Part shown: positions 38,027 through 46,097 of the stretch, one piece after another
Numbering within the stretch: the stretch's first letter is position 1
How the letters are laid out: each line of letters begins with the position of its first letter
IMG/VR virus record: IMGVR_UViG_3300032323_001121
Span: 1 to 61,406 of that record
Reading direction: 5' to 3' (one strand)
Source of the DNA: a virus
DNA: 61,406 nt
Notes under the pieces: model-generated
Databases searched by the model: none
Told to the model about the DNA's origin: nothing
What the model saw: only the letters and a program-made list of their open reading frames with translations
Made by a program: the position numbers and the translations under genes

Positions 38027-38100
38027 GCTCGTTTAGCAATCTGTTTGAATGCAGCGTTCTCATAAAGCGCCGAAGGTGGGTTAGATTCCCACAACGAGCA
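38027..38100 (+). tRNA. tRNA-Met(CAT) or tRNA-Ile2
   Basis: Acceptor GCTCGTT/AACGAGC with A73, anticodon loop CTCATAA (CAT), T arm GTGGG-TTAGATT-CCCAC. The paired 1-72 bases argue against an initiator. C34 could be lysidinylated to read AUA, which the sequence alone cannot decide. Confidence 0.75.
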
Positions 38101-38184
38101 CTCGCCGTGGTTCAAAACTTTAGATGAGAGCAGTGGGGCACTTATCAAAAAGGTTTGATTTAGATTCACAACCACACGGCACAC

Positions 38185-38225: not shown

Positions 38226-38507
38226 GCGAGTATGGTGGAATCGGTAGACACACCAGACTTATGAAAATTGAGCCTCATTTAGGAAACTTTATGAGTGTAA
38301 TTCCTCAAATTCGGTGAAACCTGTAAAATGGCAATACCGAGCCAAGCATCGCAAGATGAAGGTGTAGAGACTAGACGGGGAACATCTAAACCAAAAGGTA
38401 TGATGAAGGTATAGTCCAGACCACAAACCGAAAGGGTAGTGAAAACTATAGTGGTAAGAAAATCTGTTGGGCGTATGCCCGTGGGAGTTCAAGTCTCCCT
38501 ACTCGCA
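38226..38507 (+). tRNA. tRNA-Leu(TAA) interrupted by a group I intron
   Basis: Exons 38226-38260 and 38459-38507. Acceptor GCGAGTA/TACTCGC, D loop with GG, anticodon stem CAGA/TCTG, long variable arm GGGC-GTAT-GCCC, T arm GGGAG-TTCAAGT-CTCCC. The anticodon TAA is split after its first base, the site of the classic cyanobacterial tRNA-Leu(UAA) intron. Own sigma-70-type promoter. CCA is not encoded. Confidence 0.9.
38261..38458 (+). other. Group I intron (tRNA-Leu UAA type)
   Basis: 198 nt with no ORF. Core elements are visible in order: AATTGAGCC at the 5' end, P-like AAATTCGGTGAAACCTG, Q-like AATACCGAGCC, R-like GTAGAGACTAGACGG and S-like GGTATAGTCCAG (ACTA/TAGT gives P7). The 5' exon ends ...CTT, whose last U can form the U-G pair with the internal guide GAG; the intron ends in G. 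This matches the tRNA-Leu introns of cyanobacteria and plastids. Likely self-splicing. Confidence 0.85.
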
Positions 38508-40417: not shown

Positions 40418-40541
40418 ATGGTCTTGTGCCACTTGTGCTACTGGCACACTCAAAGAGCACGGACCTCAAAACGTGGTATTCTTAAAGGGTGGTTGAGAGA
40501 CCACCAGCACCTTGACAACTGAATAATTACCATATTTTATT

Positions 40542-40614
40542 GGGTCGTTGGCAGATCGGTTTTATGCACCCGGCTTTTAACCGGTAGAGAGAGGTTCAAC
40601 TCCTCTACGACCCA
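40542..40614 (+). tRNA. tRNA-Lys(TTT)
   Basis: Acceptor GGGTCGT/ACGACCC, anticodon loop CTTTTAA, T arm GAGG-TTCAACT-CCTC. First of the main cluster; TTGACA at 40512 may belong to its promoter. Confidence 0.85.
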
Positions 40615-40652
40615 TTGACCGCCGTAGTTCGGTCATTAAACATAAACTATTC

Positions 40653-40735
40653 GGGTAGGTGTCCGAGTGGTTGAAGGAGGGAGACTGTAAATCTCTTGGT
40701 TCTGTCCATCGTTGGTTCGAATCCAACCCTACCCA
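40653..40735 (+). tRNA. tRNA-Tyr(GTA)
   Basis: Acceptor GGGTAGG/CCTACCC, anticodon loop CTGTAAA, long variable arm, T arm TTGG-TTCGAAT-CCAA. Confidence 0.85.
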
Positions 40736-40739
40736 CCTT

Positions 40740-40811
40740 GACTCTATAATGAAGTGGTTATCATACTTCTCTGTCTAAGAAGAATCACGAGTTCGAATCT
40801 CGTTAGAGTCG
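40740..40811 (+). tRNA. tRNA-Asp(GTC)
   Basis: Acceptor GACTCTA/TAGAGTC, anticodon stem CTTCT/AGAAG with loop CTGTCTA, T arm ACGAG-TTCGAAT-CTCGT; G73. Confidence 0.85.
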
Positions 40812-40815
40812 TCGT

Positions 40816-40887
40816 GTTCCTGTCGTCTAATGGTTAGGACGATGCCCTTTCAAGGCATAAACGAGGGTTCAAATCCCTTCAGGAATA
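40816..40887 (+). tRNA. tRNA-Glu(TTC)
   Basis: Acceptor GTTCCTG/CAGGAAT (G1-T72 wobble), anticodon stem TGCC/GGCA with loop CTTTCAA, T arm AGGG-TTCAAAT-CCCT. Confidence 0.85.
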
Positions 40888-40890
40888 CTT

Positions 40891-40964
40891 GGGAACATAG
40901 CTCCAATTGGTAGAGCACTTGATTGAAGATCAAGGTGTTATCGGTTCAAATCCGATTGTTCCCA
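40891..40964 (+). tRNA. tRNA-Phe(GAA)
   Basis: Acceptor GGGAACA/TGTTCCC, anticodon stem CTTGA/TCAAG with loop TTGAAGA, T arm ATCGG-TTCAAAT-CCGAT. Confidence 0.85.
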
Positions 40965-40968
40965 CCTT

Positions 40969-41041
40969 GGAAACATAGCTTAGTTGGTAAAGCATTCGAC
41001 TGATAATCGAAAGACCACTGGTTCAAGTCCAGTTGTTTCCA
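40969..41041 (+). tRNA. tRNA-Ile(GAT)
   Basis: Acceptor GGAAACA/TGTTTCC, anticodon stem TCGA/TCGA with loop CTGATAA, T arm ACTGG-TTCAAGT-CCAGT. Confidence 0.85.
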
Positions 41042-41044
41042 CTT

Positions 41045-41134
41045 GGGAGAGCACCTTGGATGGTGAGCACGACGGTGTTAGAGACGGTTCGATTCCGTCC
41101 TTTGGCAATGGTGGTTCGATTCCACCTTCTCCCC
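41045..41134 (+). tRNA. Unusual tRNA-like element with two T-arm-like hairpins
   Basis: 90 nt with acceptor-like ends GGGAGAG/TTCTCCC and a good T arm GGTGG-TTCGATT-CCACC next to the 3' end. A D-like stem CACC/GGTG is present. The middle has a second hairpin of T-arm form, GACGG-TTCGATT-CCGTC. Read as an anticodon arm that hairpin would give CGA (Ser), but extra bases precede it. Either a fused or rearranged tRNA or a decayed one. Identity undetermined. Confidence 0.4.
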
Positions 41135-41138
41135 ACTT

Positions 41139-41226
41139 GGAAGATTGGCTGAGTGGCCGAAAGCAGCGGTTTGCTAAACCGCCGAGGGGAAAAACCCCTC
41201 CGAGGGTTCGAATCCTTCATCTTCCG
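41139..41226 (+). tRNA. tRNA-Ser(GCT)
   Basis: Acceptor GGAAGAT/ATCTTCC, anticodon stem CGGT/ACCG with loop TTGCTAA, long variable arm GAGGGG/CCCCTC, G73. Confidence 0.85.
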
Positions 41227-41230
41227 CCTT

Positions 41231-41302
41231 GGCAGTATAGTTCAGTGATAGAACAGAAGATTCATACCCTTCTCGTCGGTGGTTTGATTCCATCTACTGC
41301 CT
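41231..41302 (+). tRNA. tRNA-Met(CAT)
   Basis: Acceptor GGCAGTA/TACTGCC, anticodon loop TTCATAC with one A-C mismatch in the stem, T arm GGTGG-TTTGATT-CCATC. A second CAT tRNA besides 38027. Confidence 0.75.
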
Positions 41303-41303
41303 T

Positions 41304-41377
41304 GTGTCGGTAGCATAATTGGTTAATGCGCTAGATTGTGAATCTAGTTTATGCGGGTTCAAGTCCCGTCCTTCACC
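41304..41377 (+). tRNA. tRNA-His(GTG)
   Basis: Anticodon stem CTAGA/TCTAG with loop TTGTGAA, T arm GCGGG-TTCAAGT-CCCGT and C73, the bacterial His discriminator. The acceptor GTGTCGG/CCTTCAC has two adjacent mismatches, so function is probable but weakened. Confidence 0.75.
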
Positions 41378-41380
41378 TTT

Positions 41381-41452
41381 GCCCTTATAGCTCAGTGGTA
41401 GAGCAACTCACTAGTAATGAGTAGGTCGCTAGTTCAAATCTAGTTGAGGGCT
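41381..41452 (+). tRNA. tRNA-Thr(AGT)
   Basis: Acceptor GCCCTTA/TGAGGGC, anticodon stem ACTCA/TGAGT with loop CTAGTAA, giving anticodon AGT. A at position 34 is rare for bacterial Thr tRNAs. Confidence 0.8.
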
Positions 41453-41455
41453 CTC

Positions 41456-41480
41456 AACTATCTGGAAATTCCAGATAGTT
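41456..41480 (+). repeat. Perfect inverted repeat between tRNAs
   Basis: AACTATCTGG, loop AAATT, CCAGATAGTT: a 10-bp stem between tRNA-Thr and tRNA-Cys. No T-run follows, so it is more likely a processing or stability element than a terminator. Confidence 0.5.
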
Positions 41481-41486
41481 CAATAT

Positions 41487-41560
41487 GTCTAGGTGGCAGA
41501 GTGGTCGAATGCGGAAGTCTGCAAAACTTCTTATCGTGGGTTCGAATCCCACCCTAGACT
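41487..41560 (+). tRNA. tRNA-Cys(GCA)
   Basis: Acceptor GTCTAGG/CCTAGAC, anticodon stem GAAGT/ACTTC with loop CTGCAAA, T arm TGGG-TTCGAAT-CCCA. Confidence 0.85.
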
Positions 41561-41586
41561 CTTGGTTCTTTATGAATCATATTTAA

Positions 41587-41659
41587 TCCCAAGTAGTGTA
41601 ATTGGAAACACGTCTGATTTTGGCTCAGAAGAGTCCAGGTTCGAGCCCTGGCTTGGGAA
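41587..41659 (+). tRNA. tRNA-Gln(TTG)
   Basis: Acceptor TCCCAAG/CTTGGGA (T1-A72 as in bacterial Gln), anticodon stem TCTGA/TCAGA with loop TTTTGGC, T arm CCAGG-TTCGAGC-CCTGG. Confidence 0.85.
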
Positions 41660-41662
41660 CTC

Positions 41663-41738
41663 GTCCGTGTATCCCAACCTGGCAGAGGAGCAACCCTGAG
41701 AAGGTTGTAATGTGGAGGTTCAAATCCTCTCACGGACA
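41663..41738 (+). tRNA. tRNA with anticodon GAG (Leu), short variable loop
   Basis: Acceptor GTCCGTG/CACGGAC, anticodon stem CAACC/GGTTG with loop CTGAGAA, T arm GGAGG-TTCAAAT-CCTCT. The variable region is about 5-6 nt, unlike the long arm normal for bacterial tRNA-Leu. Confidence 0.7.
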
Positions 41739-41780
41739 TTGACTTCTGGGATATCTCTGGTATTCTATGAAAGTCATTAA

Positions 41781-41855
41781 GGGCGTGTAGCGCAATTGGT
41801 AGGAGGCACCAGACTTAGAATCTGTACAGTGGAGGTTCAAATCCTCTCACGCCCA
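41781..41855 (+). tRNA. tRNA with anticodon TAG (Leu), short variable loop
   Basis: Acceptor GGGCGTG/CACGCCC, anticodon stem CAGA/TCTG with loop CTTAGAA, T arm GGAGG-TTCAAAT-CCTCT identical to that of the preceding tRNA. Variable loop only about 5 nt. Confidence 0.75.
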
Positions 41856-41858
41856 TAT

Positions 41859-41932
41859 GCCGAAGTAATCCAATTGGTAGAGGTGTTCGCCTCAAAAGCG
41901 AAATGTTGTGGGTTCAAATCCCACCTTCGGTA
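41859..41932 (+). tRNA. tRNA with anticodon CAA (Leu), short variable loop
   Basis: Acceptor GCCGAAG/CTTCGGT, anticodon stem TTCGC/GCGAA with loop CTCAAAA, T arm GTGGG-TTCAAAT-CCCAC. Third Leu-anticodon tRNA without a long variable arm. Confidence 0.75.
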
Positions 41933-41953
41933 TTGGATTTTATATCCAAACAC

Positions 41954-42025
41954 GTTGGGATGGTGTAATTGGTAGCACGAAGGTCTCCAAAACTTTTAGT
42001 TAGGGTTCAAGTCCCTATCCCTTCG
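41954..42025 (+). tRNA. tRNA-Trp(CCA)
   Basis: Anticodon loop CTCCAAA on stem AAGGT/ACTTT, D stem GTGT/GCAC, T arm TAGGG-TTCAAGT-CCCTA, G73 as in bacterial Trp. Acceptor GTTGGGA/TCCCTTC has two T-T mismatches. Confidence 0.75.
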
Positions 42026-42031
42026 CCAAAT

Positions 42032-42106
42032 GTCCGATTAGCTCAGTCTGGATAGAGCAGGATTCTACGAAAATCAAGGTCATCCGTTCAAATCGGATAT
42101 CGGACT
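42032..42106 (+). tRNA. tRNA-Arg(ACG)
   Basis: Acceptor GTCCGAT/ATCGGAC, anticodon stem GATT/AATC with loop CTACGAA, T arm ATCCG-TTCAAAT-CGGAT. A34 is normal for this isoacceptor and is expected to become inosine. Confidence 0.85.
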
Positions 42107-42130
42107 TGTTGTATAAATACAAATGCCTGA

Positions 42131-42203
42131 GTTGAGTGGTATCTTTTCAGGTCGGAGGAGGCAGAAATGCCTCTTTCCTGTATAAATAGTATTACCACTC
42201 AAC
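42131..42203 (+). promoter_or_regulatory. Homing-endonuclease leader: inverted repeat enclosing terminator and late promoter
   Basis: GTTGAGTGGTA (42131-42141) is the exact reverse complement of 42193-42203. Enclosed are hairpin GAGGCA-GAAA-TGCCTC plus TTT and TATAAATA at 42181-42188. The gene starts 15 nt after the right arm. Confidence 0.7.
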
Positions 42204-42218
42204 TTCAAGAGCAGAGTT

Positions 42219-42923
42219 ATGCAACTACGTATCTACACGTATAAGATTACGTTTATTGATACTCCATATTATTACTATGGAGTTCATAAAGAAAAATATT
42301 TTGATGAAGAATATTGGGGGTCTCCAATAACAAATAAATGGTGTTGGGAACTATACGAACCAGTAAAACAAATACTAGAATTCTTTAACTATTCAGATGA
42401 AGGTTGGTTAAAAGCAAATCAAATAGAAAAACAACTTATAAAACCATTTTACAATACTGATAAATGGTGTTTGAATGGAAATTGCGGTGGAATTATAACC
42501 TCCGAAATTCTTAGAAAATTTGCTACTGGAAGAACTCACCAGTGTGGAGAAAAAAATAGTCAATATGGAAAAATATGGATTAATGATGGAAACATATCTC
42601 GTAAGATATTGAAAAGTCAAATCATTCCGTATGGATACATAAGAGGGAGATGTAAAACTCAAACTCAAAACTATTGTGTAGACTGTAAAGTTCAAATTGG
42701 GGTTTCGCATTCTAGATGTAATAAATGTTCCTCAATAAAAAGAGGAATGAAATCTAGAAAATTTGAAATATCCAAAGAAGAATTGATGAATCTTATACAA
42801 AATTATCCTATAACTAAAGTTGGAAAAATTTTAGGAGTTAGTGATAATGCTGTAAGAAAACGTTGTAAAACTCTTGGAATTTCTAATTATAATAGATTTT
42901 CACATAAATCTAATAGAAATTGA
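42219..42923 (+). CDS. GIY-YIG-like homing endonuclease with zinc ribbon and HTH
   Basis: 234 residues. The N-terminal nuclease part (YTYKITFIDTPYYYYGVHKE, then EYWGSP, WCWELYEP, KQLIKPFYN, NCGG) is a variant GIY-YIG domain shared with the gene at 55528. The middle has KIWINDGN. Two CxxC pairs (CVDC ... CNKC, ~residues 150-170) form a likely zinc ribbon. The C-terminal ~35 residues (NYPITKVGKILGVSDNAVRK) are a helix-turn-helix DNA-binding module. Inserted inside the tRNA cluster. Confidence 0.8.
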   Translation: MQLRIYTYKITFIDTPYYYYGVHKEKYFDEEYWGSPITNKWCWELYEPVKQILEFFNYSDEGWLKANQIEKQLIKPFYNTDKWCLNGNCGGIITSEILRKFATGRTHQCGEKNSQYGKIWINDGNISRKILKSQIIPYGYIRGRCKTQTQNYCVDCKVQIGVSHSRCNKCSSIKRGMKSRKFEISKEELMNLIQNYPITKVGKILGVSDNAVRKRCKTLGISNYNRFSHKSNRN

Positions 42924-42950
42924 AAAAAGTTCAAATCCTACAGAAGACGC

Positions 42951-42979
42951 TTGACTATCTCTTATAGATAGTCTATACT
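42951..42979 (+). promoter_or_regulatory. Sigma-70-type promoter TTGACT-N17-TATACT
   Basis: TTGACT (42951-42956), 17-bp spacer, TATACT (42974-42979), just upstream of tRNA-Ser(TGA). The spacer holds the palindrome-like CTCTTATAGATAG. Confidence 0.75.
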
Positions 42980-42987
42980 TGATACAT

Positions 42988-43072
42988 GGAAGGTTGACCG
43001 AGTGGTTTATGGTGATAGTCTTGAAAACTATTGAGGGTAAAACCTCCCAGAGTTCGAATCTCTGACCTTCCT
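42988..43072 (+). tRNA. tRNA-Ser(TGA)
   Basis: Acceptor GGAAGGT/ACCTTCC, anticodon stem ATAGT/ACTAT with loop CTTGAAA, long variable arm GAGGG/CCTCC, T arm AGAG-TTCGAAT-CTCT. Confidence 0.85.
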
Positions 43073-43103
43073 TTGTGCCAGTCCTATGAGTGGCACACAA
43101 CAC

Positions 43104-43132
43104 TTGACATAATACTCGTTATGTATTATACT
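43104..43132 (+). promoter_or_regulatory. Sigma-70-type promoter TTGACA-N17-TATACT
   Basis: TTGACA (43104-43109), 17-bp spacer, TATACT (43127-43132). Drives the structured RNA and then tRNA-Gly and tRNA-Val. Confidence 0.8.
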
Positions 43133-43138
43133 TCACTT

Positions 43139-43225
43139 GTGTGAAGGCAAGTGCTGAGAGTGATGCCAAAAGTAAGGCACCCCGACAAGGGATACAGTAG
43201 AAGGATGCGAAACCTTCCACTCTCA
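43139..43225 (+). ncRNA. Structured non-coding RNA in the tRNA cluster, family unknown
   Basis: About 87 nt between a consensus promoter and tRNA-Gly, without an ORF. A closing stem GAGAGTG/CACTCTC encloses TGCC/GGCA, CCC/GGG and GAAGG/CCTTC hairpins with unpaired GACAAGGGATACAG, that is, a multi-branch junction. Not a tRNA: no anticodon or T arm. Candidates to test are the phage-associated manA and wcaG motifs or a small ribozyme; I could not match any by eye. Confidence 0.55.
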
Positions 43226-43231
43226 CAAAAT

Positions 43232-43303
43232 GCGAAATTAATTCAGCGGTAGAATGTCTGCCTTCCAAGCAGAACGTCAGGAGTTCGAATCTCCTATTTC
43301 GCT
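43232..43303 (+). tRNA. tRNA-Gly(TCC)
   Basis: Acceptor GCGAAAT/ATTTCGC, anticodon stem TCTGC/GCAGA with loop CTTCCAA, T arm AGGAG-TTCGAAT-CTCCT. Confidence 0.85.
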
Positions 43304-43306
43304 CCA

Positions 43307-43379
43307 GGGAGATTGGCGCAGTGGTTAGAGTATTTGATTTACATTCAAAGAGTCCACAGTTCGAATCTGTGATTTCCCA
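43307..43379 (+). tRNA. tRNA-Val(TAC)
   Basis: Acceptor GGGAGAT/ATTTCCC, anticodon stem TTTGA/TCAAA with loop TTTACAT, T arm CACAG-TTCGAAT-CTGTG. Confidence 0.85.
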
Positions 43380-43380
43380 T

Positions 43381-43413
43381 AAAGTTCAAATCATATAAAT
43401 AGATTTGAACTTT
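43381..43413 (+). promoter_or_regulatory. Late promoter TATAAATA in the loop of a perfect 12-bp inverted repeat
   Basis: AAAGTTCAAATC (43381-43392) is the exact reverse complement of 43402-43413; the loop is ATATAAATA. Same construction as at 26792 with entirely different arms, and again before an HNH gene. Confidence 0.7.
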
Positions 43414-43424
43414 AACAAAATGCT

Positions 43425-43754
43425 ATGCCTGCCAAAGATATGAAAACATACCAAAAAGAATGGTATGAAAAAAAGAAAGATTCTGGATTTGATGTTGCTG
43501 CTCAATCAAAAATTGCTAGACAACGGAAAAGAGAATGGTATAATACCATTATGTCAGATAAATCTTGTGGCAGATGTGGAGAAAGTGATAATGCTTGTTT
43601 AGACTGGCATCACATTGACCCATCACAAAAAGAGGCATCAGTAGGATATATGCTATGTAATAATAGCAAAAAAACAATTATGGAAGAAATACAAAAATGT
43701 ATTTGTCTGTGTTCTAATTGTCACAGAAAACTCCATTACTATAACCGGGATTAG
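43425..43754 (+). CDS. HNH homing endonuclease
   Basis: 109 residues. Basic N-terminus (MKTYQKEWYEKKKDSG), then the zinc-bound HNH core: CGRCGESDNACLDWHHIDPS (~residues 48-67) and CICLCSNCHRKLHYY at the C-terminus. Close in plan to the gene at 26837. The last 10 bp overlap tRNA-Pro, so the mobile gene abuts its neighbour without damage to the tRNA. Confidence 0.85.
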   Translation: MPAKDMKTYQKEWYEKKKDSGFDVAAQSKIARQRKREWYNTIMSDKSCGRCGESDNACLDWHHIDPSQKEASVGYMLCNNSKKTIMEEIQKCICLCSNCHRKLHYYNRD

Positions 43755-43819
43755 CGCAGTTTGGTTAGCGCATCTGCTTTGGGAGCAGAGGGTCGCAGGT
43801 TCGAATCCTGCATCTCGGA
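43745..43819 (+). tRNA. tRNA-Pro(TGG)
   Basis: Acceptor CCGGGAT/ATCTCGG, anticodon stem TCTGC/GCAGA with loop TTTGGGA, T arm GCAGG-TTCGAAT-CCTGC. Its 5' end overlaps the HNH stop codon. Confidence 0.85.
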
Positions 43820-43860
43820 CTTGGAGACTAAATATCTCCAAAATCTATATTATTCTTTTT

Positions 43861-44016
43861 ATGTCTCTTATTTCACAACAAGACCGAGAACTTGCTATTG
43901 AAGCATTGGATTTCTACCTCTTCAGTAAAGGTAACGACTTCACTGAAGCAAAGAGAGCAGAAGTAAATGCTCTTCTTAATTGGATTAAAATTGAGAAATC
44001 TAAGCATGAACATTAA
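43861..44016 (+). CDS. Very small helical protein, unknown
   Basis: 51 residues: MSLISQQDRELAIEALDFYL then FSKGNDFTEAKRAEVNALLN and a basic end. Overlaps the next ATG by 11 bp. Located between tRNA-Pro and tRNA-Asn. Confidence 0.6.
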   Translation: MSLISQQDRELAIEALDFYLFSKGNDFTEAKRAEVNALLNWIKIEKSKHEH

Positions 44017-44173
44017 ACTCTGGTATTGCGATTCAATGAAACAATGGCGTTGGACATTAACAGATTGTTCTCGTCCAATCATCAAACAAGAATCAGGACA
44101 ACAACCAGATTTGAGAGATGCTATGAATGATGTAGCAACAACAGTTGAGTTTATGTTAGACCATAAACTTTAA
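44006..44173 (+). CDS. Small conserved cyanophage-type protein, unknown
   Basis: 55 residues from the ATG at 44006: MNIKLWYCDSMKQWRWTLTD, then a helical end (RDAMNDVATTVEFMLD). I recall similar Trp-rich short proteins in T4-type cyanophages. Function unknown. Confidence 0.65.
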   Translation: MNIKLWYCDSMKQWRWTLTDCSRPIIKQESGQQPDLRDAMNDVATTVEFMLDHKL

Positions 44174-44183
44174 ACTTTTATAA

Positions 44184-44255
44184 TCCCCTGTAGTTCAGTG
44201 GTAGAACTCAAAACTGTTAATTTTGCTGTCTCTGGTTCGAATCCAGACGGGGGAG
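44184..44255 (+). tRNA. tRNA-Asn(GTT)
   Basis: Acceptor TCCCCTG/CGGGGGA, anticodon stem AAAA/TTTT with loop CTGTTAA, T arm TCTGG-TTCGAAT-CCAGA, G73. Followed by a perfect palindromic hairpin TTGAAGTC/GACTTCAA (about 44256-44275). Confidence 0.85.
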
Positions 44256-44308
44256 TTGAAGTCTTAAGACTTCAAATAACGCAGACGAGTGTAAAGGTAG
44301 CACTCGAT

Positions 44309-44908
44309 TTAATTTGATAAATTCTTACAATTTTCAAAGTGCCATCTTTTCATTGCTCGTTCACCTCCAAGTTTATGGCAATGAGGACACTTAATTGTAT
44401 TTTGTTTCTTATCAATTAAAGACAAAGATATCTTCATCTTTGTCTCTTCGGATAGGTTTATATTACCATCATTAAAACGACACAAAGCATTTTTTCTTGC
44501 TTGCGTAGAATTTCCTTTCATATAATTATTTTTAGACATTTTTTCTCTTGTTTCTGGTGATACTGGTCTATCTTTAATTTTTAGGGAAATTTTATCTTTC
44601 GTTTCTTTTGTATGAGTTTTATTTAAAAAATGAGGACCACCTTCTCCTCCAACTCCAATATTATAAGTATTTTTATCTTTTACTAATTCTTCATTGACAA
44701 GTTCTTTTTCTTTATTGTTCATATCTTGTTCTGTGTGGAATACATATAAAATTTCTTTTTTGAAATTTTCTTTTCCATATTTTTTAATTGATTTTATTAA
44801 TTTTGCACCGGACCCGATATATCCATCATTCAAATTTTCTGTTTGATGTTTTCCAATATAATACTTGTCATTTATTAAATTTGTAGTTTTGTAGATGGTA
44901 TAAAACAT
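44309..44908 (-). CDS. GIY-YIG homing endonuclease with NUMOD3-like repeats
   Basis: 199 residues on the minus strand using the ATG at 44908; a longer ORF start lies upstream of the promoter. YTIYKTTNLINDKYYIGKHQ is the GIY-YIG core, followed by GYIGSGAKLIKSIKKYG and the catalytic-type EEL region, then YNIGVGGEGG. NUMOD3-like segments (TKETKDKISLKIKD, SPETREKMSK, SEETKMKISLSL) follow. The C-terminus has a zinc-finger-like CPHC...H...C (CPHCHKLGGERAMKRWHFEN). TATAAATA lies on the minus strand at 44926-44933. Confidence 0.85.
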   Translation of the reverse strand: MFYTIYKTTNLINDKYYIGKHQTENLNDGYIGSGAKLIKSIKKYGKENFKKEILYVFHTEQDMNNKEKELVNEELVKDKNTYNIGVGGEGGPHFLNKTHTKETKDKISLKIKDRPVSPETREKMSKNNYMKGNSTQARKNALCRFNDGNINLSEETKMKISLSLIDKKQNTIKCPHCHKLGGERAMKRWHFENCKNLSN

Positions 44909-44925
44909 ATATTTACCTTTATATA

Positions 44926-44933
44926 TATTTATA
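44926..44933 (-). promoter_or_regulatory. T4-type late promoter TATAAATA (minus strand)
   Basis: TATTTATA on the + strand reads TATAAATA on the minus strand, 17 nt upstream of the GIY-YIG ATG at 44908. Confidence 0.6.
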
Positions 44934-45007
44934 AGAGCAGAGAGTTTTGTGCTAACCATTACTTAATATTATGTAATGGGACGGAGTTCAATTCTCTGGT
45001 CTGCCAC

Positions 45008-45080
45008 GGGGGCATAGCTCAATTGATAGAGCATTCGGTTTGCAACCGAAAGGTTTCGAGTTTGAACCTCGATGCTTCCA
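45008..45080 (+). tRNA. tRNA-Ala(TGC)
   Basis: Acceptor GGGGGCA/TGCTTCC (two G-T pairs), anticodon stem TCGG/CCGA with loop TTTGCAA, T arm CGAG-TTTGAAC-CTCG. Confidence 0.85.
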
Positions 45081-45083
45081 TAC

Positions 45084-45112
45084 TTGACTTATAAAACTCT
45101 TTATGCTACTAT
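45084..45112 (+). promoter_or_regulatory. Sigma-70-type promoter TTGACT-N17-TACTAT
   Basis: TTGACT (45084-45089), 17-bp spacer, TACTAT (45107-45112), directly upstream of the tmRNA. Confidence 0.7.
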
Positions 45113-45363
45113 ATAAAGAGTTCAAGAGGATAAACCTCTATATTCCAACACATCGGGGCAGTACCGATTATCTCCATTTCAAGGGGATAAAATAGAATCG
45201 ACTGGGATGTATGTATTATCTGTTGACGGAACAAACAAACAAACGCAAACAACATTGTTGCTTTCTCTCGTCAAACAGTTTCTGTTTGAACTAAACGAGT
45301 GAGGGGGTTATAAGTTTCCTTCTTACCCAAAACTTACAAGGAGGTGTAATGCCTCCTATTTTT
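45113..45363 (+). ncRNA. ssrA: Permuted (two-piece type) tmRNA with altered tag
   Basis: Order in the transcript: a 5' acceptor part with T arm ATCGG-GGCAGTA-CCGAT (45152-45168) and acceptor strand TATCTCC-A (45169-45176); a 6-nt linker; then the coding part starting GGGGATA (45183-45189), which pairs with TATCTCC, and GAATCGAC (45195-45202), the tmRNA D-loop signature. The tag frame at 45245-45289 reads ANNIVAFSRQTVSV-stop. After it come the hairpin CAAACAG/CTGTTTG, a pseudoknot (GGGT/ACCC and TAAGTTT/AAACTTA, 45305-45336) and a GGAGG/CCTCC terminator. Permutation is the form known in marine picocyanobacteria, whose tag ends ...APVAA. The T loop is not TTCRA, so the acceptor half is less certain. 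Confidence 0.75.
45339..45363 (+). terminator. Intrinsic terminator of the tmRNA
   Basis: AGGAGG/CCTCCT hairpin followed by ATTTTT. Confidence 0.7.
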
Positions 45364-45371
45364 GTGCCTTG

Positions 45372-45473: not shown

Positions 45474-46097
45474 ATGACAAATTTGAATCAATTTTTCAAA
45501 GAAATTCTTGAACTTGATTTTGTGTCTGGAGGTTATCAAGTATCAGAACACGAAATTGCTGTAGAAAATGCTTTGATTTCTAATGGATTTTTGAAATCAA
45601 AAATTAAAAAAATTACAAAATTACAACGTGATTTGGCACTTAATGGTGGTGATATTTTTGATTTAAAGGAGGGAGAATACATTTCACAACCGACAGGAAA
45701 AAATGATAGTCCAGATTTTATTATAAGGTATAAAGGAAAACTTTATTTTATTGAATGTAAATCTTCCAACAAGACTTATCCCGTTTATAATGGTGGACTT
45801 CCAAAAGAAGAATATATCTACATCTTTACGAGTAAAGCAACTAATGAGACTACAATTTTTTATGGTAAAGATGTAGTGTCATTAGAAAAGAGAGAACTAT
45901 ATTCAAAATTGCTTGTGGAATTAAATGAAATTCTGCATAAATATCAAAACATGCCAGAATGGAAAGATGATTCTCGTGGATTTGACTATTATATTAGAAA
46001 TATGTATACTCAATCTGGTGGGTCTGAAAAGACTGATTACTTTACACACAAAGAGAGGTTAATCTGTGAACAAAACGTTCTCAATTCTATTAGGTGA
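45474..46097 (+). CDS. PD-(D/E)XK nuclease, candidate restriction endonuclease
   Basis: 207 residues. SPDFIIRYKGKLYFIECKSS (~residues 81-100) is the PD-(D/E)XK catalytic core: D, then E-C-K. A helical N-terminus (FFKEILELDFVSGGYQVSEH) and a C-terminal helical tail flank it. It overlaps the following DNA methyltransferase gene by 32 bp, the layout of a type II restriction-modification pair. No close family recognised, so the cutting site is unknown. It could also be a DNA-repair-type nuclease, but the coupling favours restriction. Confidence 0.65.
   Translation: MTNLNQFFKEILELDFVSGGYQVSEHEIAVENALISNGFLKSKIKKITKLQRDLALNGGDIFDLKEGEYISQPTGKNDSPDFIIRYKGKLYFIECKSSNKTYPVYNGGLPKEEYIYIFTSKATNETTIFYGKDVVSLEKRELYSKLLVELNEILHKYQNMPEWKDDSRGFDYYIRNMYTQSGGSEKTDYFTHKERLICEQNVLNSIR

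Follow-up and report, generated by a model that had tools for sequence, protein, structure and literature searches.

Ribosomes that become stuck are freed by tmRNA. In E. coli, the final two alanines of its tag are reported to be the main determinant of recognition by ClpXP, and changing either of them raises KM (PMC7652416). Work in H. pylori with DD or minimal-tag mutants reports that rescue is separable from tag-directed degradation, with the wobble pair, the resume codon and the SmpB site all being essential (PMC2584231). Phages carry tmRNA genes as well, and two-piece forms made up 53 of the 133 unique phage tmRNA structures reported in one survey (PMC9004378). In the parts of the open literature available to us, those of PMC9004378 included, we found no discussion of the tag end of phage two-piece tmRNAs.

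Here we analysed a 61,406-base IMG/VR virus record (the window), the DNA of which matches Synechococcus phages, for example S-PM2, S-SRM01 and S-CREM1. The window holds a permuted (two-piece), cyanobacterial-type tmRNA gene in a phage, and both the gene and its tag are real.

A permuted tmRNA gene behind a phage tRNA cluster

A sequence-only reading of this DNA had proposed a permuted phage tmRNA and had suggested a search with the cyanobacterial covariance models. Both Rfam models scored above their curated cut-offs (RF01851 at 45103-45355, 83 bits against 70, E = 1e-20; RF04321 at 45126-45289, 60.5 bits against 47). ARAGORN, run over the window, reported no tmRNA at this locus. Model score, acceptor arrangement, and a tag frame with resume codon, stop codon and host-like body all place the gene with the permuted cyanobacterial tmRNAs, whereas the usual T- and D-loops and the Ala-Ala end, neither being a formal criterion of the family, are absent. 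A 247,112-base contig of the same lineage (L156) carries a permuted tmRNA scoring 47.9 bits against the cut-off of 47, and so almost escapes Rfam as well as ARAGORN.

The gene lies directly after a cluster of 23 tRNA genes (40541-45080), the last of which is tRNA-Ala (Table 1). Host contamination was considered and rejected: the sequence comes from an IMG/VR virus record with cyanophage matches, and the host tmRNAs group apart in a single clade.

Table 1. Features of the tmRNA locus, in window positions.
Feature	Position	Strand	Basis
tRNA-Ala	45008-45080	+	adjoins tmRNA in window and nearly all relatives inspected
Sigma70-like promoter, TTGACT - 17 nt - TACTAT	45084-45112	+	sequence; recurrence in relatives
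Acceptor piece, ending in discriminator A, CCA not encoded	45120-45176	+	RF01851/RF04321 matches, sequence
T-arm, 5-bp stem, non-canonical loop GGCAGUA (45157-45163)	45152-45168	+	
Acceptor stem 3' strand UAUCUCC, U70 at 45173	45169-45175	+	
Intervening sequence, 6 nt, predicted to be removed on maturation	45177-45182	+	homology to RF01851
Acceptor stem 5' strand GGGGAUA, start of coding piece, G3 pairs with U70	45183-45189	+	
D-loop signature AGAAUCGAC, CGAC kept, usual GG-UU altered	45194-45202	+	
Long helix P2, 5' strand pairing with 3' strand	45139-45147 with 45203-45211	+	
Tag frame ANNIVAFSRQTVSV-stop, resume codon GCA	45245-45289	+	
Hairpin P5, holding tag end and stop codon	45267-45299	+	
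Pseudoknot, stem GAGGGG/CCUUCU plus AAGUUU with AAACUU	45301-45335	+	
Terminator-like 3' hairpin (45339-45357) with T-run	45339-45364	+	

Most parts that the sequence-only reading had picked out were recovered. Its pairing of TATCTCC with GGGGATA forms a 7-bp acceptor stem that includes G3·U70, reported as the alanine identity pair (PMC3968760), and its T-arm-like hairpin has a 5-bp T-stem; an unconstrained fold of this domain returned exactly these two helices (z = -3.95; whole RNA, z = -2.68). Across 23 relatives, compensatory changes were seen in every T-stem pair (5 of 5) and in 3 of the 7 acceptor pairs, and G3·U70 was kept in all 23; this alignment is the independent evidence for the G·U pair, which had served as a filter in the parsing of T-loops. 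The tag frame, tag-end hairpin and pseudoknot are also present, and in the same relatives 95.7% of cells are paired in P5 and 100% in the AAGUUU/AAACUU helix of the pseudoknot. A terminator-like hairpin with a T tail follows, as had been proposed. The promoter claim held in part: TTGACT-17-TACTAT is present, and most relatives sharing the tRNA-like domain have TACTAT preceded, at equal spacing, by a TTGA..-like box, but promoter-like sites in the stretch are no commoner than in shuffles, so the call rests mainly on recurrence in relatives.

Several other elements were seen in the window. A group I intron match (RF00028, 63.5 bits) lies at 38251-38440 (+), with tRNA-Met (38027-38101) just upstream. 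Among the open reading frames inside the tRNA cluster, one (44309-44959, -) matches NUMOD3 and, weakly, SegE GIY-YIG, and is of homing endonuclease type; another (42219-42923, +) has a weak HTH_50 match only; and that at 43425-43754 (+) is without a Pfam match and HNH-like by eye. An N6/N4 DNA methyltransferase (PF01555; 46066-46953, +) overlaps the end of an unmatched 207-aa open reading frame (45474-46097); the former is possibly a modification gene and the latter its partner.

Tag ends and selection in cyanophages and hosts

Using the same tag-body pattern with the tag end left unconstrained, and one genome per species, we found an Ala-Ala end in 110 of 110 genuine host tags among the matches listed, mostly as AAPVAA or TAPVAA. 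The window tag instead ends in TVSV, as the sequence-only reading had noted. Tags of the ANNIVAFSRQTVSV type with this end occur in 11 other viral contigs from 11 metagenomes; because independent contigs repeat the tag and its stop codon, a local sequencing error can be ruled out. In 8 of these 11 contigs (L010, L011, L015, L024, L025, L027, L028 and L029), GTA (Val) takes the place of GCA (Ala) as resume codon, and the tag reads VNNIVAFSRQTVSV.

Tags ending in AA in related phages would, according to the sequence-only reading, have pointed to an error in this one. An AA end is absent from the close relatives of the window, which end in TALV, TSLV, SVLV or PVLV, and the whole window lineage ends in Val. 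Other cyanophage tags end in APVAV, ELATV, QLATV, AVAV, AVA, LATA, LVTA, LALA, VAA, AIAA, VAAL or SCA. Scanning viral contigs for sequence patterns and searching isolate phages by BLAST yielded 54 distinct cyanophage tmRNAs (window included). AA ends 11 of them and Val 34; the Val share is inflated by the use of window-lineage-specific sequence in one phage scan, unlike the host-phage contrast. Counted as distinct phage tags, the figures are 9 and 15 of 33, respectively. On a tree from which the variable tag end was left out, hosts form one clade and the Val label needs about five changes, at least three of them forced by well-supported branches.

The sequence-only reading had also held that the phage took a host tmRNA and changed its end. 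The tag of the window lineage does resemble a host …TAPV-AA tag lacking the final two codons: TALV and TVSV can be aligned to the TA-P-V of hosts, short of the two Ala codons, and loss of exactly these two would be the simplest path. The history is more complex, however, since phage tmRNA genes are diverse, hosts stand apart as one clade, Ala-Ala has been altered several times and the tRNA-like half of the window gene was replaced by a non-canonical one. In isolate phages, the tmRNAs of S-CAM1, S-CAM3, S-CRM01, S-SSM7, Sf-FS3 and S-CBWM1 are unannotated or filed under 'hypothetical protein' in their records, and S-SRM01 gave no permuted tmRNA match. Direct BLAST of the tRNA-Ala/tmRNA stretch of the window against isolate phages matched the tRNA-Ala end only, so a close counterpart is lacking from that isolate collection.

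Selection on the tag frame is purifying. In 17 distinct tag regions from the window lineage, the tag frame has a pN/pS of 0.24, against 2.21 and 1.35 in the other two frames, a value of 0.24 or less being reached by 2 of 500 column shuffles; in the GGCAGUA T-loop group alone it was 0.26. Each of the 14 distinct tag sequences of the lineage closes with Val, encoded by GTT or GTC, and synonymous variants of TALV are kept (ACC/ACT GCA/GCT TTG/TTA GTT/GTC). The low pN/pS argues that the peptide is selected, though P5 constrains the same bases, and selection on the nucleotides of the tag end is not purely on the peptide.

A tRNA-like domain with an unusual T-loop

The T-loop reads UUC(G/A)ANU in 104 of 104 parsed host genes among the matches listed and in 46 phage contigs, and GGCAGUA in the window and 24 other viral contigs. 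In the GGCAGUA form, U54, U55 and A58 are gone and C56 stays, all four being positions of the tRNA elbow (as described in PMC7912444). The D-loop is AGAAUCGAC in the window versus the usual GGUUUCGAC, with CGAC kept. SmpB binding is reported to need interactions between the D- and T-loops (PMC3968760), so a tRNA-like domain with this loop may work poorly. Within the GGCAGUA group, acceptor pair A5-U68 becomes G5-C68; acceptor and T-stem pairs co-vary between the GGCAGUA and canonical forms, and G3·U70 is invariant. Neither this T-loop nor the weak-degron nature of Val-ending tags had figured in the sequence-only reading.

The TVSV tag domain is found with either tRNA-like domain (L003/L007 versus the window/L008), as is the ANKIV…TALV tag domain (L151/L154 versus L152/L157), so the tRNA-like half has been exchanged as a module. 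Despite this exchange, the tmRNA remains adjacent to tRNA-Ala. One further contig (L231, around 8346, +) combines a GGCAGUA tRNA-like domain with another tag domain, which is divergent and ends in AVAV-stop.

Predicted function and comparison with known systems

We assign a probability of about 0.58 to a functional phage tmRNA that would work with host SmpB and AlaRS, rescue ribosomes and add an attenuated degron. Such a tmRNA, encoded at the 3' end of the tRNA cluster, would be expressed from a promoter of its own, processed into two pieces and provided with CCA. Host AlaRS would charge it with alanine through G3·U70 and host SmpB would bind it; we assign the host protein because no SmpB was found in the 12 phage records searched, some of them fragments, and since ClpP was likewise not found in 11 such records, again including fragments, host SmpB and host proteases would have to serve. 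In the window gene the wobble pair, a resume codon and CGAC are all preserved. The phage tmRNA would then enter ribosomes stalled on broken mRNA, for example on host messages degraded during infection, and add ANNIVAFSRQTVSV. With Val in place of Ala-Ala at its end, this tag should be recognised poorly by host ClpXP, so that ribosomes would be recycled and rescued products degraded slowly or not at all, probably to the benefit of the phage, whose tmRNA would compete with that of the host for SmpB and stalled ribosomes.

The sequence-only reading went further, to rescue without marking the product for proteolysis, which is too strong. In Synechocystis, EYFP fusions to three tags are reported to rank LVA > AAV > ASV, with AAV and ASV still acting as degradation tags (PMC3446811), and GFP-AAV in Bacillus thuringiensis has a reported half-life of about 15 min (PMC5732988). 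As these tags are still degraded elsewhere, we predict a degron that is attenuated, not absent. Such residual degradation of Val-ending tags in other systems, and the AA still found at the end of some cyanophage tags, count against our explanation.

The same reporters, destabilised as they are by Val-ending ssrA variants (PMC5732988, PMC3446811), lend something to a reading that we consider rather unlikely, namely that the tag is still an effective degron, acting via ClpX, ClpC or a looser protease, and that the phage boosts ordinary trans-translation and amino-acid recycling; the host-like ANNIV.FSRQ body and the hydrophobic end of the phage tag would fit it too. Yet the constancy of AA in the 110 host tags among the matches listed suggests that hosts need it, recognition by ClpXP in E. 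coli is reported to hinge mainly on Ala-Ala (PMC7652416) and ASV is reported as the weakest of the three tags in Synechocystis (PMC3446811). It seems improbable to us that the tag end is simply free to vary, with Val emerging from an AU-rich P5 and a shortened tag and having no function of its own. Phage tag ends are indeed highly diverse and lie inside a co-varying hairpin, but the synonymous TALV variants and the pN/pS of 0.24 argue for a selected peptide, and Val ends recur in separate lineages while AA is missing from all close relatives of the window.

The non-canonical T-loop, shared by 24 relatives, raises the question of an inhibitory RNA that would titrate away SmpB or occupy stalled ribosomes, an idea put forward for the tmRNA of mycobacteriophage DS6A; a molecule similar to the DS6A RNA is reported to inhibit tmRNA strongly (PMC4131195). 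The DS6A RNA is without a tag, whereas here a tag frame is present and under purifying selection even in the GGCAGUA group, and G3·U70, discriminator A and CGAC are all kept, making an inhibitor very improbable.

We thus prefer a working tmRNA with an attenuated degron. More tentatively, cyanophages may have repeatedly evolved tmRNAs that, through removal of the Ala-Ala degron, rescue without destruction, one lineage with an elbow lacking the canonical U54-A58 and U55-G18 contacts and perhaps escaping or outcompeting host SmpB control. A natural, repeatedly evolved change of this kind would uncouple rescue from destruction, the two outputs of trans-translation; to our knowledge, such uncoupling is otherwise represented by laboratory mutants only. 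A Val-ending phage tmRNA allows a clear test of what a phage gains from carrying a tmRNA, and the non-canonical T-loop is informative about the extent to which SmpB and AlaRS depend on the tRNA elbow. As such genes escape ARAGORN, phage tmRNAs are probably under-counted.

Like the two-piece tmRNAs of RF01851 and RF04321, the window gene has the permuted order, the acceptor and T arm, G3·U70, the D-loop CGAC, the tag body ANNIV.FSRQ, hairpin P5 and the pseudoknot; unlike them, it has a tag two codons shorter that ends in TVSV without Ala-Ala, GGCAGUA instead of UUCGANU as its T-loop, and a 6-nt intervening sequence. With the two-piece tmRNAs of aquatic phages (Melnitz, Mosig and AG-345-P14, as reported in PMC9004378) it shares a marine or aquatic phage carrier and the lack of a phage SmpB, here in the cyanophages searched. 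Unlike the tmRNAs reported in that survey, it escapes ARAGORN, the tool used there, and the Rfam matches of the window include no glutamine riboswitch, in contrast to the aquatic-phage forms. The mycobacteriophage DS6A tmRNA, consisting of a tRNA-like domain only, is likewise a phage variant that departs from the host form, but it is without the tag that the window tmRNA keeps as a selected frame. Engineered ssrA AAV, ASV and SsrA-DD similarly combine rescue with a weakened or missing degradation signal; these are laboratory constructs, whereas the window tag is natural and conserved. Two-piece tmRNAs of phages were already known, and what is new is the lineage-wide loss of Ala-Ala, its repeated alteration elsewhere and the GGCAGUA domain.
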